DNA from: Planotetraspora mira
GTDB taxonomy: Bacteria > Actinomycetota > Actinomycetes > Streptosporangiales > Streptosporangiaceae
DNA length: 64,000 nt
Direction: 5' to 3'
NCBI RefSeq assembly: GCF_016863275.1
Contig: NZ_BOOO01000038.1
Coordinates: forward strand, 1 to 64,000
Under the pieces are notes generated by a model. That model was not told the DNA's origin. It made no database searches and saw only the letters and a list, made by a program, of their open reading frames with translations. Position numbers and translations under genes: made by a program. Shown here piece after piece: positions 7,169 to 32,014 of the stretch (the stretch's first letter is position 1; the number at the start of each line of letters is the position of its first letter).

Positions 7169-7244
7169 GATTCGGGTCCTCTTTCGCTCAGCGTGCCGTC
7201 CGGCTTCGCGCGCGGATTCCGCCTGGCTTGACGCCCGGCTTGAT

Positions 7245-7300
7245 GCTCGGATTCCGTACGGCTCACGCTCGGATTCCGCGCGGCTCACGCTCGGATTCAC
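7245..7300. repeat. 22-bp tandem repeat upstream of the HxlR gene
   Basis: Two and a half copies of GCTCGGATTCCG[TC][AG]CGGCTCAC at 7245-7266, 7267-7288 and 7289-7300. They lie in the leader or promoter region of the HxlR gene and before the small membrane protein gene. Confidence 0.75.
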
Positions 7301-7487
7301 GCTCGACGGCGTACAAGCCCCAGCCTGCCCGAGAGTGGGGCTTTCCGCGCGGGCGCCGGCCCAGCAGGCCGCTTCCCCCGTGGGTCCGGCCGGCGGCTGG
7401 AACTCGGGCGCGCTCCCGGACGTTCACGTTGCGACGAACTCCGGCAGCGGGGGGCTGCTGGACGCTCCGATAACGAAAGGCCCCACG

Positions 7488-7682
7488 ATGTCGCCACTCG
7501 GCAAGTACTACGTTGGCGCGGGAATTGTGGCTGTGCTCGCCATCCTGCTTCCGCTGCCGTCTCTCCTGACCTGGCTGGTCGTCATCGTCGCCCTGGGCGC
7601 GCCGGTCGCGGGCTACTTCATGCTCGACGAGTCGCAGCGCGCCCGGCTGCGCAGGGTCCGCCGCCGCGGCATCGGCCGCTGA
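7488..7682 (+). CDS. small two-TM membrane protein
   Basis: A 64-aa protein starting at ATG 7488 (MSPLGKYYVGAG) with GAAAGG upstream. The longer in-frame ORF starting at 7026 runs antisense through the HxlR gene and is not credible. Residues ~8-24 and ~27-47 are hydrophobic and probably form a membrane hairpin; the tail is strongly basic (RARLRRVRRRGIGR). No function can be assigned. A strong hairpin terminator follows about 125 bp downstream. Confidence 0.7.
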   Translation: MSPLGKYYVGAGIVAVLAILLPLPSLLTWLVVIVALGAPVAGYFMLDESQRARLRRVRRRGIGR

Positions 7683-7709
7683 CCCGGCGAACGTCGCCGA
7701 GGCGTCACA

Positions 7710-7807
7710 GCAAGACCGGTCGAAGCAAGACCGGTCGAAGCAAGAACAGCCACAGTTAGACCGGTCGAAGCAGGAACAGCTACAGCAAGACCCGGTCAAC
7801 GCAAGAA
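7710..7807. repeat. 15-bp direct repeats downstream of the small membrane protein gene
   Basis: Six to seven consecutive units: GCAAGACCGGTCGAA at 7710 and 7725, GCAAGAACAGCCACA at 7740, GTTAGACCGGTCGAA at 7755, GCAGGAACAGCTACA at 7770, GCAAGACCCGGTCAAC at 7785, and a partial copy at 7801. Two unit types alternate from 7725 to 7784. The array sits in the 3' untranslated region just before a terminator hairpin. Confidence 0.85.
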
Positions 7808-7833
7808 CGCCCGCGGTCCGGTGACCGCGGGCG
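7808..7833. terminator. bidirectional hairpin terminator
   Basis: A perfect 11-bp stem, CGCCCGCGGTC (7808-7818) with GACCGCGGGCG (7823-7833), and a four-base loop. It lies between convergent genes ending at 7682 and 7882. Confidence 0.85.
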
Positions 7834-19314: not shown

Positions 19315-19569
19315 CGCAACCTTCCCTCAGGCGATAGGTGCTCTGCACAGTCTGCATGCCGTTTACGGAGTTTGCCAAGTGATTACGTGGTTGCAGTATC
19401 CAGGAAGTTCGGAATCCGCGATATCGACATGTAACCACAACGAAATCCGTGAGCCTCGATTTTCCCCGTCGCCCGGCCGCGCGGGCGGGGAGCGTCACGG
19501 GATGTGGTGCAATGGGCTCACCCAACGGCCCAGCGCGCCTCAAACCACCTACATTCGGGAGAAAACGCC

Positions 19570-20910
19570 GTGACACCTGCGGAGATCGAAAAGGCCGTCG
19601 AGGCGGGAATGCCGCAGGCGATCGAGGACCTCACGAAGCTCGTGTCGATCCCGTCCGTCGCGTTCCCCGGGCACCCGGAGGCCCCGGTCCACGAGGCGGC
19701 CGCGGCCGTCGCGGACCTGCTGCGCTCGGTCGGTCTCCCGCACGTCGAGTTGATCCCCGTCGAGGGCAGCTTCCCCGCCGTCTACGCCACCGCTCCCGCG
19801 CCTCCCGGCGCTCCGACCGTGCTGCTGTACGCGCACTACGACGTGCAGCCCTCCGGTGACCTCGCCCTGTGGCGGACCCCGCCGTTCGAGCCGACCCTGA
19901 TCGGCGACGCGATGTACGGCAGGGGCGCCGCCGACGACAAGGGCGGCCTCATCGCCCACATCGCGGCGCTGCGCGTCTTCCAGGGCAGCTTCCCCGTCGG
20001 CCTGAAGGTCATCATCGAGGGCCAGGAGGAGTACGCCGGCGAACGGCTCGAGGCGCTCGTCGAGTCCGACCCCGAACTCGTGCGCGCCGACGCGATGGTC
20101 ATCGGCGACGTCGGCAACCCGAAGGTGGGCGACCCCGCGCTGACGACCATGCTGCGCGGCATGGCCGCCTTCACGGTCGAGGTCCGGTCGCTCGGCGACG
20201 CCGTACACAGCGGATCGTTCGGCGGCGCGGCCCCGGACGCCCTGTCGGCGCTGATGCGCATGCTGACCTCGATGCACGACGACAACGGCGACGTCCGGGT
20301 ACCGGGCCTGGGCCGGGGGACCTTCCCCGGCGAGAGCTCCTCCGAGAAGGAGTTCCGCGCGACGGCCGGCGTTCTCGACGGCGTCTCCCTGGTCGGCTCC
20401 GGGTCGATCGCCGACCGGGTCTGGGCGTCCTACGCCATCACCGTGACGGGGCTCGACGTGCCCAGCGTGTCCGGTGCGATCAACGCGGTGCAGGCGGTGG
20501 CCCGGGCTCGCGTCACGATCCGGATCCCCCCGTCAGGTGACTCCGCGACGGCGCTGAAGGACGTGACCGCGTTCCTCGAGGAGGTCGCCCCCTGGGGCGT
20601 CCAGGTGTCGTTCGCCGACGTGGTCACCGGCTCGGGCTTCCGCGCCGCCGAGGGCGGACCCGCTCGGGCGGCGATCGAGAAGGCGATGGAACAGGCCTTC
20701 GGCCGCCCGCCGCGCGAGGTCGGCCAGGGCGGGTCGATCCCGCTGGTCGCGAAGCTGGCCACGCTCCACCCGCAGGCGGAGATCCTGCTCTACGGGGTCG
20801 AGGACGAGGACGCCTCCATCCACGCGCCGAACGAGCGCGTGGTCCTCGACGAACTCCGCCGGATCATCACCGCCGAAGCCCTCTTCCTCGCCACCTACAC
20901 CCACCCATAA
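19570..20910 (+). CDS. M20 family dipeptidase
   Basis: A 446-aa cytoplasmic zinc peptidase. GTG 19570 is chosen because GGGAG lies eight bases upstream; the ATG at 19504 has no ribosome site. Zinc site motifs are in order: VLLYAHYDVQPSGD (His and Asp), GRGAADDKGG (Asp bridging), then IIEGQEEYAGE (Glu pair), IGDVGN and a final His in EDASIHAPNE. A dimerisation domain lies between ~185 and ~310. Members cleave dipeptides, carnosine-like substrates or N-acyl amino acids. The stop at 20908-20910 is 16 bp before the first unit of repeat array A. Confidence 0.93.
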   Translation: MTPAEIEKAVEAGMPQAIEDLTKLVSIPSVAFPGHPEAPVHEAAAAVADLLRSVGLPHVELIPVEGSFPAVYATAPAPPGAPTVLLYAHYDVQPSGDLALWRTPPFEPTLIGDAMYGRGAADDKGGLIAHIAALRVFQGSFPVGLKVIIEGQEEYAGERLEALVESDPELVRADAMVIGDVGNPKVGDPALTTMLRGMAAFTVEVRSLGDAVHSGSFGGAAPDALSALMRMLTSMHDDNGDVRVPGLGRGTFPGESSSEKEFRATAGVLDGVSLVGSGSIADRVWASYAITVTGLDVPSVSGAINAVQAVARARVTIRIPPSGDSATALKDVTAFLEEVAPWGVQVSFADVVTGSGFRAAEGGPARAAIEKAMEQAFGRPPREVGQGGSIPLVAKLATLHPQAEILLYGVEDEDASIHAPNERVVLDELRRIITAEALFLATYTHP

Positions 20911-20926
20911 CCCCGCCACCCTCGGC

Positions 20927-21349
20927 CGTGATCATGCACAGGTTCGGCCAGAGGGTGCCCCACCTGCGCCACCTTCTGCCGTGATCATGCATGGATTCGG
21001 TAGAACAACCCCTGACCTGCGGCGACGCTTGTCGTGATCATGCACGGATTCCGGGAAACACACCCCCACCAGCGTGAACGCAGTTTGTGATCATGCACGG
21101 TTTCGTCAGGCATGCCGCTGACCAGGCGATTCACATCCCGTGATCATGCACGACTCCAGGGTCGCCGCACGCGACTCGCGCATGATCACGGCGGGCATTC
21201 GGGCCGGTGAGGGACGGCTTCCCCGAACTTGCGCATGATCACGGCTGAGGGTGCCGCAGGTGGGGCACCCTCCGGCCGAACCTGTGCATGATCACGGCGG
21301 GCGGATCAGCAGGTCGGCGGGCATCTTTCCGAACCTGTGCATGATCACG
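20927..21349. repeat. array A: nine 53-bp-spaced repeats, five forward then four inverted
   Basis: Consensus unit core CGTGATCATGCACAGGTTCG. The embedded TGATCA starts at 20929, 20982, 21035, 21088 and 21141 (forward), then at 21183, 21236, 21289 and 21342 (inverted). Every step within an arm is exactly 53 bp; the step across the centre is 42. A second weaker block (C-Y-G-A-C-C-W-G-C-G) recurs about 33 bp into most units. The units between 20927 and 20979 and between 21244 and 21297 are inverted near-copies of each other over about 53 bp. The array fills most of the 604-bp gap between two plus-strand genes. No protein-coding frame is plausible because 53 is not a multiple of three. Confidence 0.95.
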
Positions 21350-21514
21350 CGGAAGGGGGCGGCGCGGGTGGCGGGTCTCCGGCTCGGGTACGGCGCCGCC
21401 GAACGGATGATCGCGCGTTAGCCGGACGAGATGATCGGAAACTAACGTGGATCGCTATACGTCGGGAAAGATGCCGGCAATCTCGTTCTCCGATGCTCGT
21501 CCAGTGGAGGAAGC

Positions 21515-23362
21515 GTGTACCCCCCAGCGCAGAAGCGCCGCCGCGGCTTCGCTCCGTTCATCATCGCGATCATCATCGCGGGCGCCCTCATCGTCGGACT
21601 GCGCGTGCTCTTCGGAGGGACGGACGACGGCTCGGCGAGCACGCAGGGCTCATCGGGCTCGCAAGGATCGCAAGGTTCGTCGGGCGCCCAAGCGGCGGCC
21701 TGCGGCGACGACGGCGTCAAGCTGAACGTCGTGGCCTCGAGCGAGAAGGCGGAGGTCCTCCGTACGATCGCCGCTTCCTACAACGGCCGCGAGGTCGGCG
21801 GCCGCTGCGTCGACGTGGTCGTGACCTCCAAGGCGTCAGGCGACGCGATGCAGGCGCTCGCGCGCGGCTGGGACACCCGTAGGGACGGCCCGAAGCCGGA
21901 CGTGTGGACTCCCGCGAGCGCGGGCTGGGTCAGCCTCCTCCAGCAGCGGATGCCCGCCGCGGCGGACAGGACCGCTCCCGTCCCCGCACAGAACCCCACC
22001 ATCGCGACGTCACCCCTGGTCATCGCCATGCCAAAGCCGATGGCCCAGGCGATCGGCTGGCCGTCGAAGAAGGTCGGCTGGACGCAGATCCTCGATCTGG
22101 CCAACGACCCGAAGGGCTGGGCGAAGTACGGCCACCCCGAATGGGGTCCCTTCCGTCTCGGCAAGACGAACCCGAACTACTCCACCTCCGGGCTGAACGC
22201 CACGATCGGCGCCTATTTCGCCGCGACGGGGTTGTCGGGGGACCTGTCGAAGCAGGACGTGGCGAACGCGAAGACGCGGAAGTTCGTCAGCGGCGTGGAA
22301 CGGTCGATCGTCCACTACGGCGACATCTCGCTGACGTTCCTGTCGAACCTCCAGCACGCGGACGACTCCGGTACGGCCATGTCGTACATCTCGGCCGTGA
22401 CCATCGAGGAGAAGTCGGTCTGGGACTACAACCAGGGCAACCCGACGGGCGACCCGAAGACCCTCGGACGGCACGCCAAGCCCAAGGTCCCGCTCGTGGC
22501 GATCTATCCCTCGGAGGGCACGCTCTTCTCGGACCATCCGTACGCCGAACTGACCGGACTCGACCCGGCCAAGAAGGCCGCGGCGGACGACTTCCTCAAA
22601 TACCTTCGTTCGGACGGCCAGCGCGAGTTCGCGAAGTACGCCTTCCGCTCGTTCGACGGGAAGGCCGGCGGCCTCATCACCGCGGCGAACGGGCTCGACC
22701 CCAAGCAGCCCGCCACCACGCTGAGCGTGCCGGCTCCCGACGTGCTGGACGGGATCCTCAAGAGCTGGGGCGAGTTGCGCAAGCCGGCCAACGTCCTGGT
22801 GGTCATCGACACGTCCGGCTCCATGGGGGCGGAGGTCCCCGGCACCGGGAAGAGCAAGCTCGACCTGGCCAAGCAGGCCGCAATCAACGCCCTCTCCCAG
22901 TTCGGGCCGAACGACAAGGTCGGCCTGTGGATGTTCTCCCTCCGCCAGGACGGCAACAAGGACTACCGCCAACTGGTCCCGGTGAAGAAGATCGCCAAAG
23001 ACGAGCTGACAAGCCGTATCGGCGACCTCATCCCCAACGGCGGCACCGGCCTGTACGACACCGCGCTGGCGTCCTACCAGGACGTGATGAAGCGGCAGAG
23101 CGACGACACGATCAACGCCGTCGTCCTGCTCACCGACGGCAAGAACGAGGACAACGACTCGATCTCCCTCGACGACCTCCTCCCCGACCTGGGCACGGAG
23201 GCGGGGCAGGACACCGTCCGCCTGTTCACGATCGCGTACGGCGCGGACGCCGACCTGGACGTCCTCAAGCAGATCTCGCAGACCACCAACGCCGCGGCCT
23301 ACGACTCCCGTGAACCGGGGAGCATCGATCAGGTGTTCACCGCCGTGCTCTCCAACTTCTGA
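21515..23362 (+). CDS. substrate-binding and von Willebrand factor A domain protein
   Basis: A 615-aa membrane-anchored extracellular protein. GTG 21515 has GTGGAGGAAGC upstream. Residues ~12-32 form a TM anchor (FAPFIIAIIIAGALIVGL), followed by a Ser/Gly/Gln linker. Residues ~65-400 resemble an extracellular solute-binding protein (VASSEKAEVLRTIAASYN, PDVWTPASAGWVSLL). Residues ~425-612 form a VWA domain with the MIDAS motif D432-T-S-G-S-M and TDGKNEDNDS further on. Such two-domain proteins are common in actinomycetes, but their ligand is not known to me. The next gene starts 15 bp downstream and is probably co-transcribed. Confidence 0.9.
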   Translation: MYPPAQKRRRGFAPFIIAIIIAGALIVGLRVLFGGTDDGSASTQGSSGSQGSQGSSGAQAAACGDDGVKLNVVASSEKAEVLRTIAASYNGREVGGRCVDVVVTSKASGDAMQALARGWDTRRDGPKPDVWTPASAGWVSLLQQRMPAAADRTAPVPAQNPTIATSPLVIAMPKPMAQAIGWPSKKVGWTQILDLANDPKGWAKYGHPEWGPFRLGKTNPNYSTSGLNATIGAYFAATGLSGDLSKQDVANAKTRKFVSGVERSIVHYGDISLTFLSNLQHADDSGTAMSYISAVTIEEKSVWDYNQGNPTGDPKTLGRHAKPKVPLVAIYPSEGTLFSDHPYAELTGLDPAKKAAADDFLKYLRSDGQREFAKYAFRSFDGKAGGLITAANGLDPKQPATTLSVPAPDVLDGILKSWGELRKPANVLVVIDTSGSMGAEVPGTGKSKLDLAKQAAINALSQFGPNDKVGLWMFSLRQDGNKDYRQLVPVKKIAKDELTSRIGDLIPNGGTGLYDTALASYQDVMKRQSDDTINAVVLLTDGKNEDNDSISLDDLLPDLGTEAGQDTVRLFTIAYGADADLDVLKQISQTTNAAAYDSREPGSIDQVFTAVLSNF

Positions 23363-23377
23363 GCCAGGAGCCCTCCC

Positions 23378-24136
23378 TTGTCCCGCTTCACTGACGAACT
23401 GCGCGACCCCTGGGGACTGCTCATGGGCGCCACCGCGGGCGGTGTGGCCTGGGCCGTCAACGTGCCCCCCGTCGCCGCCGGCGGCGTCGGCGTGGTTGTT
23501 TGGCTGGCCAAGTCGTTCGCGTCGGCGTGGCAGGCCGCCGGAGGCGAGAGCCGTACCGAGCCGGTGCAGTTGCCGGTCACCAAGGGCAGTCCAGAGGAGG
23601 CGTGGTTGCGGCGCGCCGAGCGGGCGGCGAACGGCTTCGGCGACCTGACGGCCTCGATGCGGGGCCGGCTTCTCCTCGACCGGATCGCGGCCATGCGTCC
23701 CCAGGTGGACGACACGGTCGCGACGTTGCGGCGGCTGGCCGGGCAGGCGTCGGTGACCGGCTCGGCTCTCGCCCGTTTCGACCCCGGCTTCCTGCAGGCA
23801 GAGCGCGCACGGCTCGAGCGGGCGCGCGCGTCGGCGTCTGCCGACCTGGCGGGCGACCTGGACCGGTCGATCGCGTCACTGGAGTCGCAGCAGCAGGTCC
23901 ACGACCGGTTGTCGGCGACGCGGGCACAGGTGCTGGCCAGGCTCGAGTCCGGCGCGATCAACCTCGAGGGCCTGGTCGCCCGGGCGGTCGAGGTGTCGGC
24001 GATGACCGCGACGTCCTCGGCGGCCGACAGCGGAACCCGTGACCTGGACGACCTCGTCTCCGAACTGGAGCTCACCCGGCAGAGCCTGCACGAGGTCGAG
24101 CAGGCCACCCGCGAGGATCTCGGTCAGACCCCCTGA
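23378..24136 (+). CDS. membrane-associated coiled-coil protein
   Basis: A 252-aa protein from TTG 23378, with AGGAG seven bases upstream. An N-terminal membrane hairpin is likely at residues ~11-48 (WGLLMGATAGGVAWAVNV, VAAGGVGVVVWLAKSF). The rest is highly charged and helical, with Ala/Arg/Glu/Leu heptads from ~75 to ~250, so a coiled coil is likely. It is separated from the VWA gene by 15 bp and probably functions with it at the membrane. I do not recognise a named family. Confidence 0.75.
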   Translation: MSRFTDELRDPWGLLMGATAGGVAWAVNVPPVAAGGVGVVVWLAKSFASAWQAAGGESRTEPVQLPVTKGSPEEAWLRRAERAANGFGDLTASMRGRLLLDRIAAMRPQVDDTVATLRRLAGQASVTGSALARFDPGFLQAERARLERARASASADLAGDLDRSIASLESQQQVHDRLSATRAQVLARLESGAINLEGLVARAVEVSAMTATSSAADSGTRDLDDLVSELELTRQSLHEVEQATREDLGQTP

Positions 24137-24146
24137 CCTGGGCGTC

Positions 24147-25091
24147 TCAGGAGGCCAGCAGGCGGTCGAGCTCGGCGGGCCCGGCGTTGCCCCCCGTGCA
24201 GACGACGGCCACCTCGCGACCGGCGAACTCCTCGCGCACGAACAACAGGCCGGCGAGCGCGGCCGCGCCGGCCCCCTCCGCCAGCGTGTGGGCCTCGGTG
24301 AGGAGCATCCGCTGGGCGCGCCGGATGTCGTCGTCGCCGACCAGCAGGAAGTCGGCCAGTCCGTCCCGCATGACGGCCTGGGGCGTCGCGAAGGCGGAAC
24401 CGGTCGCCAGGCCGTCCACCACGGTCTCGCACGGCCGGGTCACGAGCTCTTTCGACGCCCAGGAGTCGTGGGCGGCCGGCGCCGAGGCCGACTGCACGGC
24501 GATCACCCGGCAGCGGGGCGCGAGCGCGGCGGCGACCAGGCAGGCGGCGGCCGCTCCCGTGCCGCTGCCGACGGGCACGAAGACGGCGTCGAGGCGGGGC
24601 CGTGCGGACAGGACCTCGAGGTAGAGCGTGGCGACTCCCGCGATGATGTCCGGCTCGTCGGCCGGGCTGATCAGGCGTCTTCCCTGGTCATCGGCCAGCG
24701 CGCGGGCGTGGTCCGCCGCCTCGACCATGGTGGCGCCCGCGACGGTGACCGTGGCGCCGAGTGCCTGGACGGCGGCGACCTTGGCCGGGTTGGGGTTCTC
24801 CGGCATCACGATCGAGCAGGCGACGCCGTACAGCCGGGCGGCGTAGGCCACCGACTGCGCGTGGTTGCCGGTGGAGTACGCGACGACTCCCCGCGACCGG
24901 TCGGGCATCCGGGCCAGCAGGTTGATCCCTCCGCGCACCTTGAAGGCGCCGGTGGGCTGAACGTTCTCATGCTTGACGTGGACCCGTGCCCCCACGGTCG
25001 AGTCGAGGACGGGATAGGACCACATGGGCGTCTCTGGCAGGTGCCCGGCGATCAGCCGCCGGGCTTCCAGCACGTCGCGGAACTCTGTCAC
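24147..25091 (-). CDS. PLP-dependent threonine/serine ammonia-lyase family protein
   Basis: A 314-aa fold-type II PLP enzyme from GTG 25091; longer in-frame ATGs exist at 25121 and 25148 but would consume the LysR control region. The PLP-Lys lies in VQPTGAFKVRGG, the substrate/PLP Asn in AYSTGNHAQSVAYAA, and the phosphate-binding Gly-rich loop in VPVGSGTGAAAA. There is no C-terminal ACT regulatory domain, so it is of the catabolic or racemase-like type acting on hydroxy amino acids; the exact substrate is uncertain. It is divergent from a LysR regulator at 25178, which probably controls it. It converges closely with the coiled-coil gene (10-bp gap). Confidence 0.82.
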   Translation of the reverse strand: MTEFRDVLEARRLIAGHLPETPMWSYPVLDSTVGARVHVKHENVQPTGAFKVRGGINLLARMPDRSRGVVAYSTGNHAQSVAYAARLYGVACSIVMPENPNPAKVAAVQALGATVTVAGATMVEAADHARALADDQGRRLISPADEPDIIAGVATLYLEVLSARPRLDAVFVPVGSGTGAAAACLVAAALAPRCRVIAVQSASAPAAHDSWASKELVTRPCETVVDGLATGSAFATPQAVMRDGLADFLLVGDDDIRRAQRMLLTEAHTLAEGAGAAALAGLLFVREEFAGREVAVVCTGGNAGPAELDRLLAS

Positions 25092-25177
25092 GTACCCCAG
25101 GGTGGCGGTCGATCGTGGCATAGGTCCAACTGAAGTCATCTCGTCCATCGATAGATGGCATTGATAGGTTTCGCGGC
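25092..25177. promoter_or_regulatory. divergent control region with a candidate LysR site
   Basis: An 86-bp gap between the PLP enzyme and LysR genes. It contains T-N11-A type sequence with GATAG half-sites (GATAGATGGCATTGATAG at about 25150-25167), as expected for a LysR box, although the dyad symmetry is weak. Confidence 0.4.
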
Positions 25178-26041
25178 ATGCTCGACGTCGTACGGCTACG
25201 GGTGCTGCTCGCCGTGTCGAGGACCGGTTCTGTGACCGCAGCGGCCAGGGAACTCCACTACGCCCAGCCCTCGGTCAGCCACCACCTCGCCCGGTTGGAG
25301 GCGGAGACCGGGGCGAAGCTCGTCCAGCGAGTGGGCCGCGGCATCCGGCTGACCGAGGCCGGCCGCCTGCTTGCGGAACGGGCCGCCGAGATCCTCGGAC
25401 GGCTCGACTCCGCCTCGGCCGAACTCGCGGCCCATGTCGGGCTGCGCGCCGGCCGGGTGCGGCTGGCCGCCTTCCCTTCGGCACTCGGCACCTTCGTCCC
25501 CGAGGCGGCCGTACGGCTCGCCCGCGATCACCCGGGCCTGGACCTGCGGCTGGCCGAGGCCGAACCGCCTGAGGCGTTGCGCATGTTGCGGGCCGGCGAC
25601 GTGGACGTGGCGGTGGTCTTCCAGTACGGCCCTGCCGGCGGGGCCGAGGGGGCCGGGCTTCGGATGACGCCCCTTCTCGACGAGCCGAGCCTGCTCGTGG
25701 CGCCCGGCTCCGGGCCGCTCGCGACGGCGCTGCGGGACCACGCGGAGTCGCGGTGGATCGCGGGCTGCGATCGGTGCCGTGCTCACCTGCTCGATCTGTG
25801 CGCCCTCGCCGGATTCGAGCCCCGCATCTCGTTCACCACGGACGACTACGTCGCGGTCCAGGCCATGGTGGCCGCAGGCCTGGGTGTGGCCGTCCTGCCG
25901 AGGCTGGCGTTGTCGGCGCACCGTCATCCAGGCGTCCAGGTGACCGAACTGCCCGGGTCGACGCGGCGGGTGTTCGCGGCGACGTACGGGGAGCCGCCCG
26001 ATCCTCCCGCCGTCGCCGCTCTGCTGGCCGCCCTCACGTGA
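25178..26041 (+). CDS. LysR-family transcriptional regulator
   Basis: A 287-aa regulator. The winged HTH at residues 1-~60 reads VVRLRVLLAVSRTGSVTAAARELHYAQPSVSHHLARLEAETGAKLVQRVGRG, as pieces of the standard LTTR signature. The effector domain (type 2 periplasmic-binding fold) covers ~88-285. It is divergent from the PLP lyase gene, the classical arrangement for a LysR protein and its target. The next plus-strand gene is a LysE exporter 45 bp downstream, so the regulator may also control amino-acid export. Effector unknown. Confidence 0.92.
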   Translation: MLDVVRLRVLLAVSRTGSVTAAARELHYAQPSVSHHLARLEAETGAKLVQRVGRGIRLTEAGRLLAERAAEILGRLDSASAELAAHVGLRAGRVRLAAFPSALGTFVPEAAVRLARDHPGLDLRLAEAEPPEALRMLRAGDVDVAVVFQYGPAGGAEGAGLRMTPLLDEPSLLVAPGSGPLATALRDHAESRWIAGCDRCRAHLLDLCALAGFEPRISFTTDDYVAVQAMVAAGLGVAVLPRLALSAHRHPGVQVTELPGSTRRVFAATYGEPPDPPAVAALLAALT

Positions 26042-26086
26042 AAATCGGGATGCCGGGACCGGCGGTCACTTCGTACCATCGCGACC

Positions 26087-26719
26087 ATGCCACCGATTAC
26101 GACGCTCGCCCTGTTCGCGGCCGCGACCCTCGCTCTGCTCCTGGTACCGGGACCCGCAGTGGTCTACATCGTGACCCGCAGCGTCGCCCAAGGCCGGGCG
26201 GCAGGGCTCGTCTCGGTGCTCGGGGTCCACGCCGGCTCGGTGGTGCACGTGACCGCCGCGGCGCTCGGCATCAGCGCGCTGCTCGCCGCGTCGGCGACGG
26301 CGTTCGCGATCGTGAAATACCTGGGTGCGGCCTATCTGGTCTACCTCGGCATCCGCAAGCTGATCAAACGCTCCGCTGCGGAGGAGCCCTTCGAGATGCG
26401 GCGGGCGTCCCGGTCTCGGCTGTTCGGGGAGGGGTTCGTCGTCAACGTGCTCAACCCCAAGACGGCGATCTTCTTTCTGGCCTTCCTGCCGCAGTTCGCC
26501 GACCCGTCGCGAGGACCTCTGGCGCCGCAGATCGTGCTGCTCGGGCTCATCTGGATCGTGCTCGGGATGGCGAGCGACGGCAGTTACGCCCTCCTGTCGT
26601 CGGCTCTGGCGGGGCGGCTGCGCCGGTCGGCCCGGGCCCGGCGGCGCCTGGACGTGGGCAGCGGCGTGGTCTACCTGGGTCTGGGAGCCGTCGCCGCCCT
26701 CACCTCCGAATCCGCGTGA
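26087..26719 (+). CDS. LysE family translocator (amino acid exporter)
   Basis: A 210-aa inner membrane exporter of the LysE/RhtB family with about six TM helices: residues ~4-25, ~40-62 (AGLVSVLGVHAGSVVHVTAAAL), ~66-90, ~110-135, ~148-170 and ~185-205. Family motifs GPAVVYIVTRSVAQGRAAGL, YLGAAYLVYLGIRKL and NVLNPKTAIFFLAFLPQF are present. Family members export lysine, threonine, homoserine or similar amino acids. It follows the LysR gene on the same strand. Its TGA stop is the first three bases of the TGATCA of the first unit of repeat array B. Confidence 0.93.
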   Translation: MPPITTLALFAAATLALLLVPGPAVVYIVTRSVAQGRAAGLVSVLGVHAGSVVHVTAAALGISALLAASATAFAIVKYLGAAYLVYLGIRKLIKRSAAEEPFEMRRASRSRLFGEGFVVNVLNPKTAIFFLAFLPQFADPSRGPLAPQIVLLGLIWIVLGMASDGSYALLSSALAGRLRRSARARRRLDVGSGVVYLGLGAVAALTSESA

Positions 26720-27118
26720 TCATGCACAGGTTCGGCGAGACACCCTCTGACCTGCCCCTCCCTCGGGCGTGATCATGCACAGGTTCGGAGATTGCCGGCC
26801 TGACCAGCGTGAACACCGGGCGTGATCATGCATACATTCGCCGATCGGCTGGATGAGCTGGGCCGATTCGGTTCGTGATCACGCACAGGCTCGCTCAAAC
26901 CCGCGCCCAACTGGCCGTACGCACTTCGTGATCATGCAATTCGGCACTGCATGATCACGAGCGGCAAAACCCCTGGTCGGCCCGCGTTTCCACGAATCCG
27001 CGCATGATCACGAACTGAGAACCCGCTGGCCAGAGACCATGCCACCGAACCCGTGCATGATCACGGCCGGTGGTCGCGCTGGCCAGCGGGCATGCGCACG
27101 AACCTGTGCATGATCACG
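26715..27118. repeat. array B: nine 53-bp-spaced repeats, five forward then four inverted
   Basis: Same design as array A. TGATCA starts at 26717, 26770, 26823, 26876 and 26929 (forward), then at 26952, 27005, 27058 and 27111 (inverted). All steps within an arm are exactly 53 bp; the central step is 23. The centre is a perfect hairpin, GTGATCATGCA (26928-26938) with TGCATGATCAC (26948-26958). The outermost units keep the full core CGTGATCATGCACAGGTTCG, while inner ones diverge. The array spans the whole gap between convergent genes, and the stop codons of both genes lie inside its first and last units. Confidence 0.95.
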
Positions 27119-28718
27119 CCGGGGTGGGGGGTGGGGTGGCGGCGGATTGGGCGATCTGCTTGGCCCATCGGTAGTCGGCCTTGCCGGCCGGCGACCGGAG
27201 CACTTCCTCCACGAACGCATACGTACGCGGCACCTTGTACCCCGACAACCTCTCCCGGCAGTGAGTGTCCAGTTCCTCCCATGCGGGAGCGGTCCCCTCG
27301 TACGGCTGGACCACGGCCGCCACACGGGAGCCCCAACGATCGTCCGGGATCCCGGTGACGACGGCGTCGAACACCGACGGATGCCCCTTCAGGACCGCCT
27401 CCACCTCCTCGGGGAAGACCTTCTCCCCGCCGGTGTTGATGCACTGCGAGCCCCGGCCGAAGATCTGGATCGTCCCGTCTTCCTCCACCATGGCCATGTC
27501 GCCCGACAGCAGCCATTTGATGCCCTCGCCGTCCGTCACGAACGTCCGCTCGGTCTTGTCCGGGTCGTTGTAGTACCCGAAGGCGATGCGCCCCGACCTC
27601 GCGACCATTCCCATGACTCCCGAGCCCGGCTCGACGGGCCTGAGCTTCTCGTCCAGTACGGCGATGCCCGCATCGGCCTTGGGCTGGTACTTCAGACCGG
27701 CCTCCGGAGTCGACCCCGCGACTCCCGACGCGGTGTAACCGGACTCCGTCGACCCGAAGCTGTCCATGATCATCGACTGCGGCAGCAACTCCTGCAGCCG
27801 CGCACGGACCGTGCCGCTGAGGATCGCCCCCGTCGAGCTCACGGCGGCGAGAGAGGACAGGTCGTACGCCCCGGTGGCGATCTCCTCGGCCAGCGGACGG
27901 GCCATCGCGTCGCCGGTGATGTTGATGCTGACGACCTTCTCGCGCTCGATCGCCCGCAACACGGCGACCGGGTCGAACTTGCGGACGTAGACCATGGTGG
28001 AGCCCATGCACCAGCACAGGAACGTCCCCATCTGCGCCGCGCCGTGCATCAGCGGCGGCGCGGCCATCATGACGATCGGGTTGGCGTTGCGCGCCTGCTC
28101 GATGACCGACTCCGGCGTCTCCAGCGGCGCGCCGTACGGGTTGCCCCCGCCGAACGCCATGAACAGGTCCTCGACCCGCCACATCACGCCCTTGGGCATG
28201 CCGGTGGTCCCGCCGGTGTAGATGATGTAAACGTCCTCGCCGGTCCGCGGCTCGAATCCTCTCGTCGCCGGCTGGCCTGCCAGCGCCTCGCCGTACGGCA
28301 CGGCCTCCGAGATGGCGGAGTCGCCGCCGACGGCGATGAGGTGACGCAGCGCGGGGGCTTCGGGAGCGGCGGCGGCGACCCGGCCGTCGAACTCGACGTC
28401 GAACAGCAACGCCACGATGTCGGAGTCGCGGTAGAGGTAGACCAGTTCCGCCTCGACATAGCGGTAGTTCACGTTCACGGGCACGGCCCGGATCTTCAGC
28501 GCCGCGAGCAGCGCGGTGATGTACTCCAGCCCGTTGTAGAGCTGGATCCCGACGTGTTGCCCGCGCCGTACACCCTTGGCGGCCAGGTGATGGGCGAGGC
28601 GGTTGGCCTGTGCGTCGAGTTCGGCGTACGTCATACGGGTGTCGCCGCAGACGACGGCCACCCGGTCCCCGATCGCGTCCGCGAACCCTTCGAAAAGGTC
28701 GGCGTGATTGAACTCCAT
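27114..28718 (-). CDS. acyl-CoA synthetase (AMP-forming)
   Basis: A 534-aa adenylate-forming enzyme activating a carboxylic acid to its CoA thioester. ATG 28718 (MEFNHADLFEG) is preceded by AGAGAGG; the ATG at 28850 is inside the thiolase gene. The P-loop is YIIYTGGTTGMPKG, followed by FGSTESG-type A5 and SGDMAMVEEDGTIQIFGRG A7-A8 motifs; the C-terminal Lys is in SPAGKADYRWAKQ. It resembles FadD-type acyl- or sterol-side-chain-CoA ligases. It is last in the minus-strand operon that starts at 33542. Its TGA lies inside the final unit of array B. Confidence 0.92.
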   Translation of the reverse strand: MEFNHADLFEGFADAIGDRVAVVCGDTRMTYAELDAQANRLAHHLAAKGVRRGQHVGIQLYNGLEYITALLAALKIRAVPVNVNYRYVEAELVYLYRDSDIVALLFDVEFDGRVAAAAPEAPALRHLIAVGGDSAISEAVPYGEALAGQPATRGFEPRTGEDVYIIYTGGTTGMPKGVMWRVEDLFMAFGGGNPYGAPLETPESVIEQARNANPIVMMAAPPLMHGAAQMGTFLCWCMGSTMVYVRKFDPVAVLRAIEREKVVSINITGDAMARPLAEEIATGAYDLSSLAAVSSTGAILSGTVRARLQELLPQSMIMDSFGSTESGYTASGVAGSTPEAGLKYQPKADAGIAVLDEKLRPVEPGSGVMGMVARSGRIAFGYYNDPDKTERTFVTDGEGIKWLLSGDMAMVEEDGTIQIFGRGSQCINTGGEKVFPEEVEAVLKGHPSVFDAVVTGIPDDRWGSRVAAVVQPYEGTAPAWEELDTHCRERLSGYKVPRTYAFVEEVLRSPAGKADYRWAKQIAQSAATPPPTPA

Positions 28719-28749
28719 ACGAGGGACCTCTCTCCCGGGGCCTGGCCGA

Positions 28750-29898
28750 TCAGGGTTTTTGCGCTCCGACGATCCACATGGCGAAGAATTGCGCCCCTCC
28801 GCCGTAGGCGTGGCCGAGGGCCGTACGGGCGCCGTCGACCTGATGCTCACCAGCCATGCCTCTGACCTGCTGCGCCGCCTCCGCGAACCGGATCAGGCCG
28901 GAGGCGCCGATGGGGTTGGAGGACAGCACGCCGCCTGAGGCGTTCCACGGGATGTCGCCGTCGAGGGCCGTGCTGCCGGACTCGGTGAGCTTCCATCCCT
29001 CGCCTTCGGGGGCGAAGCCGAGGTTCTCCAGCCACATCGGCTCGTACCACGAGAAGGGCACGTAGACCTCGGCGACGTCGATCTCCCTGCGCGGATCGGT
29101 GATGCCGGCCTGGCGGTAGACGTCGGCCGCGCAGTCCTTGCCGGCCTGGGGGCTCACCGTGTCGCGATCGGCCCGGGCCATCGGCTCGGACCGCATGGCG
29201 GTGCCGTGCACCCAGGCGGGCGTCCCGGTCACCTTGTCCTCGGAGGCGAGCACCATCGCGCAGGCGCCGTCCGACGACGGGCAGGTCTCCAGATAGCGGA
29301 TCGGCTCCCACAACATCGGGGTCGACTCGACCATCTGCCGGTTGATGCCGGGGATCCGCAGGTGGGCGTAGGGATTCTTCAGGGCGTTCTGCCGGTCCTT
29401 GACCGCGACCAGTGTGCCGATGTGGTCGGGCGCGGCCGATCTGCGCATGTACTCGCGGATGTGCGGCGCGAAGTACCCGCCCGCGCCGACGACCAGCGAG
29501 GCGTTGAACGGCAGGTGCGTGGACAGGGCCCAGGTCGCGTTCGACTCCGACTGCTTCTCGAAGGCGACGACGAGCACCCGGTCGTGCACGCCGCCCTGGA
29601 TGAGCGAGGCCCCGACCAGCGCCGTCGACCCGCCGACCGATCCCGCGGTGTGCACGCGCGTCATCGGCTTGCCCGCCGCGCCCAGGGCGTCCGCGAGGTA
29701 CGCCTCGGGCATCATCACGCCCTCGAACAGGTCGGGGGCCTTGCCGATCACGACGGCGTCGATGTCCTTGAACGTGAGGCCCGCGTCCTCCAGCGCGCGG
29801 AGGGCGGCCTCTCTGACCAGACCGGCGATGGAGACGTCACGCCGCTTGGTCTGGTATCGCGTCTGGCCGACGCCGATGACGGCACAGCGGTTACCCAC
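28750..29898 (-). CDS. thiolase-fold lipid-transfer/acetyl-CoA acetyltransferase-like protein
   Basis: A 382-aa thiolase-superfamily protein of the SCP2/Ltp group. The N-terminal half starts CAVIGVGQTRYQTKRRDVS. The segment that normally holds the nucleophilic Cys (consensus NCATGSTAL) reads HTAGSVGGSTAL, with Ser87 at that position. The C-terminal half keeps NASGGVLSSNPIGASG and GHAYGGGAQFFAMW. Without the Cys it is unlikely to be a normal thiolase; Ltp2-type retro-aldolases partnered by DUF35 proteins are a good model, and a DUF35 gene is in this operon. ATG 29898 lies only 14 bp from the first unit of array C. Confidence 0.85.
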   Translation of the reverse strand: MGNRCAVIGVGQTRYQTKRRDVSIAGLVREAALRALEDAGLTFKDIDAVVIGKAPDLFEGVMMPEAYLADALGAAGKPMTRVHTAGSVGGSTALVGASLIQGGVHDRVLVVAFEKQSESNATWALSTHLPFNASLVVGAGGYFAPHIREYMRRSAAPDHIGTLVAVKDRQNALKNPYAHLRIPGINRQMVESTPMLWEPIRYLETCPSSDGACAMVLASEDKVTGTPAWVHGTAMRSEPMARADRDTVSPQAGKDCAADVYRQAGITDPRREIDVAEVYVPFSWYEPMWLENLGFAPEGEGWKLTESGSTALDGDIPWNASGGVLSSNPIGASGLIRFAEAAQQVRGMAGEHQVDGARTALGHAYGGGAQFFAMWIVGAQKP

Positions 29899-29912
29899 GA
29901 CAGCACCTCGAT

Positions 29913-30030
29913 TGCATGATCACGATCGACGACTTCCCAGCTCAGGGCGTGAATTCACGAACTTGCGCATGATCACGCCAGGGGTTTTCGCAGGTGGGAC
30001 GGCCTGATCACGAACCTGTGCATGATCACG
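29913..30030. repeat. array C: three inverted 53-bp-spaced repeats
   Basis: TGATCA at 29917, 29970 and 30023, each step 53 bp, all in the orientation of the right arms of arrays A and B. The unit furthest from the missing left arm carries the full inverted core CGAACCTGTGCATGATCACG, and the one nearest resembles the central unit of array B. It therefore looks like a half-element. It lies in the 174-bp gap between two minus-strand operon genes. Confidence 0.92.
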
Positions 30031-30072
30031 GCGGAGGGTGGGGGGCTTGGGGGGCTTGGGAGGCATGGGGGG

Positions 30073-31092
30073 TCAGGCCTCCAGGACGGTGACGAGGTTG
30101 TGCTGGAGGCAGGGGCCCGACGTGGCGTGGGCGACGGTACGGCCCGCGCCGCCGTCGAGGATCCGCGACGCGGCCTCGCCGATGCGGATCAGACCCGTCG
30201 CCATGACGGGGTTGGCCGCCAGCGGCCCGCCCGAGGGGTTGACCACGGTCTCCGCCGGCAACTCGAGCGCCTCGCGGAGGATGAGCTCCTCGTGGCTGAA
30301 CTGTGCGTGCAACTCCGCGACGTCGACCGGCCCCTTGCCGACCCCCGCCGCCCGGCCGGCGGCCTCCGCGGACGGCGACCGCGTGAGGTCACGCATGCCG
30401 AGGTAGTGGGGCTCGATCCGGTGGGCGATGCCCGTGATCCAGGCGGGGCGCTCCGCCAGTTCTCGCGCGAGGTCGCCCGCGGCCAGCACGATCGCGGCGG
30501 CGCCGTCGGTGATCGGCGCCACGTCGTACGGCCTGAGCGGCTCGACCTCGAACTCCTCCCCGGAGGGGTCGTCGAGGTCGAGGGCGCGGGGATTGTTCCG
30601 GCCGTCCGCGCGGCTGCGCCGTACGATCTCGTCGAGCTCGGCTCGGCCCGCGCCGTACGCGTTCGCCTGCAGGGCGGCGAAGGAGACCTGGTCCAGACCG
30701 AGCGGCGCCAGATAGTACGGGTCGAGCTGCAGGGTCATGATCGCCCGGAGGTCGCCCATGGACGACTTGCCGAAGCCGTAGACCAGCGCCGTGTCCACGT
30801 CCCCATGCTGGAGCCGCACCCAGGCCTCGTACAGGGCCCACGCCGCGTCCATCTCGACGTGGCTCTCCGAGATCGGCGGCCAGGCGCCGAGGGCGTCCAG
30901 CGCGGAGACGAAGGAGAACGGCGCGCCGGCCAGGTAGTCGCAGCTTCCCGAGCAGGTGAACCCGAACCTCGACAGGCCGGACCGTTCCTTGACCTCCTGG
31001 ATCACCGGGTGGATCAGCTCGAAGTCGGTCAGTCCCTCGTCGTGGTCGGTGTGCTCGGTCTGGGCGAAGGCGATGACCGCCACCTCACGCAT
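30073..31092 (-). CDS. thiolase-fold lipid-transfer protein, second subunit
   Basis: A 339-aa thiolase-superfamily protein, shorter than a full thiolase (about 390). The start ATG 31092 has GGAGG six bases upstream. The N terminus reads MREVAVIAFAQTEHTDHDE; the segment expected to carry the nucleophilic Cys reads SHVEMDAAWALYEA and has none. C-terminal motifs NPSGGPLAANPVMATGL and VAHATSGPCLQHNLV are present. In actinobacteria such proteins occur with a second thiolase-like subunit and a DUF35 protein, as here. Its start is 13 bp after the DUF35 gene stop. A role in side-chain or beta-oxidation chemistry is inferred. Confidence 0.85.
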   Translation of the reverse strand: MREVAVIAFAQTEHTDHDEGLTDFELIHPVIQEVKERSGLSRFGFTCSGSCDYLAGAPFSFVSALDALGAWPPISESHVEMDAAWALYEAWVRLQHGDVDTALVYGFGKSSMGDLRAIMTLQLDPYYLAPLGLDQVSFAALQANAYGAGRAELDEIVRRSRADGRNNPRALDLDDPSGEEFEVEPLRPYDVAPITDGAAAIVLAAGDLARELAERPAWITGIAHRIEPHYLGMRDLTRSPSAEAAGRAAGVGKGPVDVAELHAQFSHEELILREALELPAETVVNPSGGPLAANPVMATGLIRIGEAASRILDGGAGRTVAHATSGPCLQHNLVTVLEA

Positions 31093-31105
31093 ACGGCTCC
31101 TCCCC

Positions 31106-32014
31106 TCACAGCTCGACGTCCGGCTCGCCCGTGGGGGCGAACCAGCGGATGTTGGCCATCGACAACGTGCGTTCCTCCGGCGGCGCCCAGACGGCCTTGA
31201 CGCGCATGCCCTGGCGCACCTCGTGTGCGGGCACGTCGCCCACGAGTGCGATCATCGGGACGTCCGCCCCGTCGAGCAGGATGTACGCCGACACGAACGG
31301 CACCTGGGGCGCCCGCGGGTCGGGCAGGTTGTTGATCGCGAAGGTGGTCACGGTGCCGGTGTCGGGCAGCTCGACCTCTTCGGAGATCGCCGAGCCGCAC
31401 TCGGGGCACGATGTCCGGAAGGGCACGTAGACCTTGTCGCAGTGCGTGCAGCGCCCGGCCAGGAAGACGCCGTCGCGGACACCTTCCAGGAATCGGCTGA
31501 GCGACCGGCCGGGCCGGACGCGGTACTCCATGCGGATGTGCGCGACCATCGCGGTCACTTCAGGAACAAAGCACGAAATATCGGTTATGTGGCCGACGCG
31601 GTCCGCCTCCGGCTTCCAGCGGGGACGGACGCGCAACCCCGGGCGCATCGCCTTGGCGGCGTCGGCGCCGACCGCGTGGACCAGCGCCGTGTCCGCGCCG
31701 TCCAGCTTGATCAGCGCCCAGGCGAACGGCCGGTCCAGCGGATGGCCCTTCCTCGGCGACTCGACCCAGGCCCAGCTCATCACGGTTCCGGCCGGGCCGA
31801 CCTCGACATAGTCGCCGGTCACCGGCTCCCCCGTCTCCGGTTCGTATTCCAGCGGCGGCACGAGCACCCGGCCCTCGGCGGTGCGCACGCCGACGATGCG
31901 GCCGTCGCGCAGCTCCGTCAGGAAGCGCCCGATCACCGGCCCCGTCGTCCGCGTGTATCCACCCGGGAACTCGAGTGCGTGCTCGGCGACCAGCGGTTCA
32001 GATGGCACGGTCAC
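31106..32014 (-). CDS. Zn-ribbon OB-fold (DUF35) protein with two OB halves
   Basis: A 302-aa acyl-CoA-associated protein. The GTG at 32014 or 32008 is favoured because GGGAGGG lies just upstream within the preceding gene; the gene overlaps the ligase stop by about 17 bp. Two DUF35-like halves are visible. In the first (residues ~25-150) the rubredoxin-like Cys positions are lost (RTAEGRVLVPPLEYEPETGE). The second (~165-300) keeps the zinc knuckle CTHCDKVYVPFRTSCPECG and an OB fold ending in VKAVWAPPEERTLS. DUF35 proteins bind thiolase-like partners and present acyl-CoA, as ChsH2 does with Ltp2. The neighbours fit this. Confidence 0.88.
   Translation of the reverse strand: MTVPSEPLVAEHALEFPGGYTRTTGPVIGRFLTELRDGRIVGVRTAEGRVLVPPLEYEPETGEPVTGDYVEVGPAGTVMSWAWVESPRKGHPLDRPFAWALIKLDGADTALVHAVGADAAKAMRPGLRVRPRWKPEADRVGHITDISCFVPEVTAMVAHIRMEYRVRPGRSLSRFLEGVRDGVFLAGRCTHCDKVYVPFRTSCPECGSAISEEVELPDTGTVTTFAINNLPDPRAPQVPFVSAYILLDGADVPMIALVGDVPAHEVRQGMRVKAVWAPPEERTLSMANIRWFAPTGEPDVEL

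Follow-up and report, generated by a model that had tools for sequence, protein, structure and literature searches.

A two-armed array of 20-bp cores set at exact 53-bp steps lies directly behind an M20 peptidase gene of Planotetraspora mira, and related arrays stand behind other genes of this and several other actinobacterial genomes. Judged from its sequence, this array (array A) may be a directional array of binding sites that would end or insulate transcription through a candidate cooperative DNA-binding factor, a reading to which we give a little less than an even chance. The DNA shows directly the arrays, their spacing, orientation and place, the constraint on them and their lineage dialects, and also that strong hairpins seldom occur at the gene ends they occupy. 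The arrays have a 53-bp step and mostly lie directly behind genes, at positions where other genes often carry an RNA hairpin, which suggests that some actinobacteria stop transcription by a mechanism not described so far.

Anatomy of array A and its family

The window, the whole 64,000-nt stretch of DNA analysed here, comes from contig 38 of the source genome (G000, 9.03 Mb). The M20 peptidase gene (19570..20910, + strand; own gene call; Pfam PF01546, E 7.2e-25) ends on a TAA stop codon at 20908-20910, 16 bases ahead of the first core of array A, and a C-rich leader (20911..20926, + strand), visible in the sequence, fills this distance. The + arm opens on its outermost core, CGTGATCATGCACAGGTTCG, an exact match to the consensus at 20927..20946, continues with cores 2 to 4 at 20980..20999, 21033..21052 and 21086..21105, and closes on an innermost core (21139..21158) that is degraded past CGTGATCATGCAC. 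The - arm faces it. Its innermost core (21171..21190) is degraded past CGTGATCATGC; counted from outside, core 3 lies at 21224..21243, and core 2 (21277..21296) and the outermost core (21330..21349) both match the consensus exactly. A conserved second element of the unit, box 2 (GACCTGCG), occupies 21014..21021 on the + strand in the spacer of unit 2 and is recognized by its sequence, the unit profile and its substitution rate. The next gene (21515..23362, + strand; own gene call), with a solute-binding domain and a VWA domain (Pfam PF13531, PF00092), starts after a gap of 166 bp. A preliminary description of this stretch had reported nine TGATCATGC cores, five forward and four reverse, at steps of exactly 53 bp inside each arm. 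All nine are exact and the step holds, with + cores at 20929, 20982, 21035, 21088 and 21141 and the 5' T of the - cores at 21188, 21241, 21294 and 21347, the right-hand ends of the TGATCA boxes given there. In G003 (L335) and G001 (L337), a short GGGGTGAACAGAACC-like repeat, absent from the window, stands between the M20 stop codon and the array.

Two further arrays are found in the window. Array B (26715..27118, both strands) has five + cores and four - cores, with the palindrome CGTGATCATGCA..TGCATGATCACG at its centre. The TGA stop codon of a LysE-type translocator gene (26087..26719, + strand; Pfam PF01810) lies within its first core (distance -4), and that of an AMP-binding enzyme gene (27114..28718, - strand; Pfam PF00501) within its outermost - core (distance -4). 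Array C (29905..30030, - strand) is a single arm of two cores and an inner half-core, flanked by two genes on the - strand. At up to one mismatch the window holds 49 core matches, a number never reached in 100 dinucleotide shuffles, which gave 8.0 on average. Its longest chain of exact cores at 53 bp counts five, where chains in 200 mononucleotide shuffles had a length of 0 or 1. Tandem repeats of 12-45 bp also occur at 2584-3761 and 7201-7808, in or beside long reading frames.

The 18-bp core has 743 matches in G000 at up to three mismatches, compared with four in a reversed control, and is found in all five Planotetraspora genomes examined, 194 to 638 times at up to two mismatches. Among the matches listed by a scan of a public collection are Planotetraspora silvatica, kaengkrachanensis and phitsanulokensis. 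A profile of 396 distinct 53-bp units consists of box 1 (CGTGATCATGCACAGGTTCG), box 2 (YGACCTGCR) about 32 bp further on, and a weak AC.C. Spacing is not free in the genome at large, the outcome that the preliminary description had named as one against it: 397 of 515 consecutive same-strand cores less than 140 bp apart stand at exactly 53 bp, 17 at 52 bp and three at 54 bp. Pairs of distances such as 18+35 or 27+26 could be extra cores within a unit that keep the 53-bp frame. On contig 1 of G000, around 22284-22330 (L010), a normal arm is led by two additional cores in steps of 21 bp. Distances of 53, 32 and 21 bp correspond to about 5, 3 and 2 helical turns, so the cores may, as first proposed, lie on one face of the helix.

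With repeats left out, arrays are laid out as '+-' in 64 cases, '+' in 33, '-' in 32 and '+++-' in one, two being unassigned; four of the 65 single arms lie less than 400 bp from the end of a stretch and are possibly cut. No '-+' array was found against the 64 '+-' arrays. Among 197 arms, 80 have four cores, 55 have three, 33 have five and 29 another number. The 5+4 layout, whose recurrence was an early question, is nothing special: it occurs in 4 of 65 dyads, 4+4 being the commonest (18 of 65). Mean core scores of four-core arms run 34.1, 33.1, 32.2 and 20.2 from outside to inside, and the consensus of the last core retains little past CGTGATCATGCA (scores and consensus computed from arms with repeats left out). 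The divergence of cores described earlier does not fall at random: cores on average degrade from outside in, and most arms have only a half-core at their inner end. Seven single arms of G000 were inspected with their inner flanks; six close on a half-core and one on a fuller core. In one single arm (G000 contig 1, 270245-270423; L022) the half-core reaches into the following gene at its predicted start, and the array thus takes up the entire gap from stop to start.

Constraint, dialects and shared gene ends

Twelve of 31 G000 arrays could be compared within 400 kb of genome G003, the other 19 being without a match there. Both flanks of these 12 match G003 at 93-98% identity, and the array is present in all 12. 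Substitutions affect 23 of 852 sites of the core CGTGATCATGCA (2.7%), 14 of the 23 at the last base, and 27 of 420 box 2 sites (0.064), compared with 116 of 688 and 106 of 624 sites in the variable spacer stretches (together 222 of 1312, 17%). On these counts the core is under purifying selection, and so is box 2. Arm spacing is altered in 2 of 52 orthologous intervals, by one base each, and centre gaps in 3 of 6 (p 0.006). That so few arm intervals changed while the variable spacer stretches diverged by about 17% upholds the initial suggestion that spacing is under selection. Unit number differs between the two genomes in several arrays. At variable positions, facing outer units are more alike within an array than between arrays (0.55 vs 0.50), and units 1 and 2 of one arm reach 0.54, against 0.48 for other arrays; the greater likeness of spacers inside one array points to duplication or conversion that happened locally and long ago.

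A sequence-only model of the unit matches 20 of 200 family genomes at E <= 0.001. A pattern for the architecture, two CGTGATCWTGNA cores about 53 bp apart, matches 14 of the 200 and none of the controls: at least 23 times each in five Planotetraspora genomes, G062, G086, G037, G186, G120 and G193, and once or twice in G053, G054 and G199. A class-wide sample yielded 4 of 296 genomes, namely G000, G120 and, from other families, G265 and G324. Ten sampled genomes of genus g65 comprise three with 26-169 matches, one with two and six with none.

The bases that follow the core differ between lineages. The commonest seven after CGTGATCATGCA are CAGGTTC in G000 (47/153), GAAGTTC in G004 (24/39, at loci picked for holding arrays) and CGTCCTG in G324 (11/30), and ATCCCGC follows all 14 copies in 200 kb of G265; after CGTGATCWTGYA, the core form of G186, GTTTGTC is commonest (16/34). 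G062 has no dominant 7-mer after CGTGATCATGCA (6/92) and carries a fixed TTC followed by C, not G. The 53-bp step is kept in 31 of 36 cases in G004, 58 of 84 at g65/g34/g51 loci and 43 of 74 in G062, where 15 more stand at 52 bp. Many CGTGATCATGCA cores with an extension of their own are also present in G265 (L271-L280), without a fixed 53-bp step, and in G324 (L281-L290), where 53-54-bp steps occur beside steps near 33. The most over-represented intergenic 10-mers in G062, G186, G265 and G324 are core or extension sequence. No core-derived 10-mer is over-represented in 200 kb of G139, from the genus of G186, where a single core match was found.

Arrays recur at the same gene ends in different genera. 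The relA comparison is post hoc, relA having first been noticed behind two unrelated arrays and then tested. All 13 relA ends read in motif-bearing genomes have a core within 63 bp of the stop codon, mostly as part of arrays in the genome's own dialect (16 genomes, 14 with a relA match, 13 readable; G053 and G092 have no relA match). In G054 the end consists only of a small palindrome plus one core. None of 27 relA ends read in further genomes (30 given, G265 for the second time) has an intact array; for 26 of them no core occurs in the first 130 nt and no array was visible by eye in 400 nt. Over both sets, the relA sequences of G265, G238 and G325 were not parsed. At the relA end of G177 (L309), one of these 26, two altered half-cores, GTGACCTTGTAGAA..TTCTGCAAGATCAC, make up a single small palindrome, which may be a minimal version of the array, its ancestor or a product of its decay.

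The M20 gene ahead of array A was picked in advance as a control; of 24 genomes given, 22 had a match and 21 could be read (G036 was not parsed, and G265 and G324 lack a match). Its end bears an array in all five Planotetraspora genomes and in G062, a genome of a second genus, and no array was found there in the other 15 genomes, six of which bear the motif elsewhere. These results establish that the position of array A is common to two genera, and no more. They also dispose of a very recent tandem duplication as the origin of array A, an alternative raised at the outset and refuted likewise by the orthologous arrays in G003. Among unselected reciprocal best gene pairs of G000 and G062, both genes end in an array in 3 pairs, one only in 2 and neither in 35 (p 0.0016); the corresponding numbers for G000 and G186 are 1, 5 and 72 (not significant, p 0.15), and the remaining genome pairs gave ten gene pairs or fewer. 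Occurrence of the 53-bp architecture with different extensions (G004, G062, G186 and others) and of arrays at the same gene ends implies a factor acting in trans.

G199 is a close relative of the array carriers G193 and G120, sharing 97% identity with G193 over the relA stretch. It has two pattern matches genome-wide, and its relA end (L306) holds a relic array with altered cores, the arm spacing of which is broken by a 6-bp gap. In this array the cores of G199 have diverged from those of G193 to the same degree as the spacers (13/72 vs 31/181 sites); between G199 and G120, cores differ less than spacers (11/72 vs 37/183), and G120 and G193 differ at 4 of 72 core and 19 of 199 spacer sites. 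G199 may perhaps represent a natural loss of the array system, as judged from small counts at one locus.

Some of these features would also fit remains of a mobile or self-copying repeat that inserted at stop codons and is uniform through copying rather than selection. Presence within genus g65 is patchy, arrays overlap stop codons, spacers resemble each other within an array, and the seven bases after CGTGATCATGCA are identical in every G265 copy. We consider such an origin improbable, and it comes last among the possible alternatives: arrays stand in place in G003 wherever their surroundings could be compared, relA ends are shared by several genera, constraint is confined to core and box 2, and 8 of 11 carriers gave no match to the transposase family PF01797 (see below).

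Placement behind genes and rarity of hairpins

Placement was analysed in 864 kb of G000 with our own codon-usage gene predictions, leaving out clusters without two flanking genes. Of 52 arms, 33 face a 3' end and 19 a 5' end. Median distances of 3'-facing arms behind the stop codon are 17, 11 and 16 bp in G000, G003 and G062, and those of 5'-facing arms 91, 117 and 91 bp; in 8 of the 33 3'-facing arms of G000 the TGA of the core is itself the stop codon. Clusters are rare in divergent gaps in all six genomes except G265: 3/33 in G000 (divergent share of gaps 0.29), 0/14 in G003 (0.27), 1/33 in G062 (0.22), 0/8 in G186 (0.25), 2/8 in G265 (0.25) and 0/8 in G324 (0.18). Single-direction clusters lie in sense in 10/14, 5/8, 10/15, 2/2, 2/5 and 3/3 cases, in the same order of genomes. 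Thus G003, G062 and G186 show the same pattern as G000; the 3'-facing arms of G324, with just eight clusters, are farther away (median 41), and in G265, also with eight clusters, the pattern is not clear. About 4% of called G000 genes (32/757) end in an array, so arrays are not the general terminator.

Strong hairpins are rare at these ends. In the 100 nt after the stop codon of G000 genes, the best hairpin has a median of -15.1 at array ends (n 33) and -21.2 at other ends with a gap of at least 60 bp (n 360); a dG of -25 or lower is reached at 1 of 33 and 123 of 360 ends, respectively. Hairpins at array ends are also weaker than those at 81 GC-matched ends (medians, p 0.006). Counts at relA and M20 ends have the same sign without reaching significance: perfect stems of at least 8 bp occur at 1 of 19 ends with an array, the G199 relic included, and at 9 of 41 ends without (p 0.15), the array-free ends with such stems being 5 of 15 for M20 and 4 of 26 for relA, and relA hairpins with z of -2.3 or lower occur at 1 of 12 array ends and 6 of 27 others. 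The relA end of G000, with only 84 nt after the stop codon, was left out of both comparisons. An array and a strong hairpin stand together at the relA end of G037. Weak hairpins at array ends are consistent with replacement of hairpins, with the limit that the array itself occupies the space where a hairpin would lie. On average, 52% C and 20% G make up the 20 nt ahead of an arm, and the C-over-G skew in the 100 nt after the stop codon is +0.12 at array ends and 0.00 at others; both would also suit Rho loading.

Like intrinsic terminators, the arrays sit directly behind the stop codon, where some relatives have a GC-rich hairpin; the M20 gene of some g65 genomes, such as G120 and G099, ends in a plain one. 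Unlike intrinsic terminators, array ends rarely carry strong hairpins and many arrays are single-armed, so we reject this identity.

A topological or architectural role, in which BIME-like elements would bind gyrase or a nucleoid protein and absorb supercoils or anchor the chromosome, affecting transcription only indirectly, is unlikely in our estimation and ranks first among the possible alternatives. It would account for hundreds of core copies, spacing near whole helical turns and a position at gene 3' ends, and for convergent placement being commoner among arrays (10/32) than among gaps >100 bp (46/346). However, from general knowledge of gyrase, a long, strictly kept, lineage-specific sequence with polarity is not expected, and the rarity of hairpins at array-ended genes points to termination.

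Facing arms could instead act as RNA, folding into a long hairpin of paired cores at the transcript 3' end that would serve as an intrinsic terminator or stabilizer. The + and - consensus cores in dyads are exactly complementary, some arrays have a central palindrome, the likeness of facing outer units at variable positions is beyond chance, and 20 of 65 centre gaps, which range from 31 to 223 bp, equal 32 modulo 53 (the 43 gaps outside this class are without helical phase at 10.6 bp, with R 0.154 and p 0.36). Yet half of the arrays are single-armed, none of the seven inspected G000 single arms has a facing arm, neighbours in one arm are about as alike as facing units, and a hairpin would not need an exact 53-bp step. 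Nor do the bases co-vary. RNAalifold on 60 units paired only one TGATCA region with the next, with double-sided change in 0 of 9 pairs, and in 396 units mutual information peaks at neighbouring bases (43-44, 13-14), with no strong long-range signal and no distant complementary pair standing out. A hairpin inside the unit is rejected on these grounds, and the variable core bases of the outer units of two arms show no co-variation either (z -0.5). No Rfam match was found in the window at 19400-31200 up to E 1. We rate an RNA role as quite unlikely, second in order among the possible alternatives.

Known systems and a model of array function

In gross form the arrays recall BIMEs and eukaryotic terminator-site arrays. 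REP/BIME elements lie between genes in hundreds of copies, frequently behind a gene's 3' end, and in inverted arrangement. The arrays resemble them in copy number and differ in their fixed spacing and in having no covarying hairpin in the unit. The REP-associated transposase Y1_Tnp (RAYT, PF01797), searched for in 16 genomes, is present in the carriers G004, G120 and G086 and in three genomes without arrays, and was not found in G000, G001, G002, G003, G062, G186, G265 and G324. With PF01797 missing from 8 of 11 carriers and units lacking a covarying hairpin, we reject a REP/RAYT identity. The main text of a paper on REP superfamilies (PMC3733652) contains neither 'actinobact' nor any of four actinobacterial genus names nor TGATC.

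The outside-in gradient of the cores resembles CRISPR-like growth at the leader end; a CRISPR array is rejected, judged on the spacers alone, which have box 2 in common and are constrained there. Mycobacterial interspersed repetitive units are direct repeats of roughly the size of the array unit at stop/start junctions. We know of no facing arms or phasing of the array kind among them, and we set them apart from the arrays by this general description, not by sequence.

Roadblock terminators are a further comparison. These sequence-specific sites stop polymerase; yeast Reb1 and Rap1 and LacI in E. coli are examples, and TTF-I acts at tandem arrays of Sal boxes after rDNA. Roadblock termination, orientation-dependent blocking by Rap1 and blocking by Reb1 are treated in a review (PMC10310618). 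The arrays likewise offer conserved, directional, sequence-specific sites behind genes, though the 19 of 52 G000 arms that face a 5' end depart from this. Unlike known roadblocks, they are bacterial, comprise hundreds of cores, are known from sequence alone, and have exact 53-bp phasing, facing arms, half-core ends and genus dialects.

No description of these arrays was found in the open-access literature searched, which falls short of a full survey. A table of ArgR sites in Streptomyces coelicolor (PMC5839063) includes a site near SCO5864 that contains CCGTGATCATGCAC. This is possibly chance or a hint to the binding factor, and we treat it as a lead only. ArgR is widespread and the arrays are patchy, which makes ArgR a doubtful candidate.

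For array function we infer a factor protein, cooperative binding and termination. In this model, binding would be nucleated at the outermost site, the 20-bp core plus box 2; further copies of the factor would bind inward every 53 bp, about five helical turns, needing ever less sequence, until the arm closes on a half-core. The bound array would then most likely block or release RNA polymerase leaving the gene, since a large number of arms begin at a stop codon and run in the direction of transcription. A facing second arm would act likewise on polymerase coming from the opposite direction, and the dyad would then terminate or insulate both ways.

More broadly, we find it conceivable, though on balance short of probable, that several actinobacterial lineages end some genes by polar, cooperative protein arrays behind the stop codon instead of hairpins, that factor and sites drift together into dialects (CACAGGTTCG, CAGAAGTTCG, TAGTTTGTCGCA and others), and that the sites decay once the factor is lost. 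In the textbook picture, bacterial transcripts end through hairpins or through Rho. If the proposal is true, a third, DNA-protein mode of termination with its own sequence dialects would operate at many gene ends, part of termination in high-GC actinomycetes would be explained, and two-way insulators would become available for engineering antibiotic-producer strains. Together with the apparent loss in G199, the dialects offer a natural test of co-evolution between a DNA-binding factor and hundreds of sites. Whatever their function, phased arrays that different genera keep at matching gene ends need explaining.
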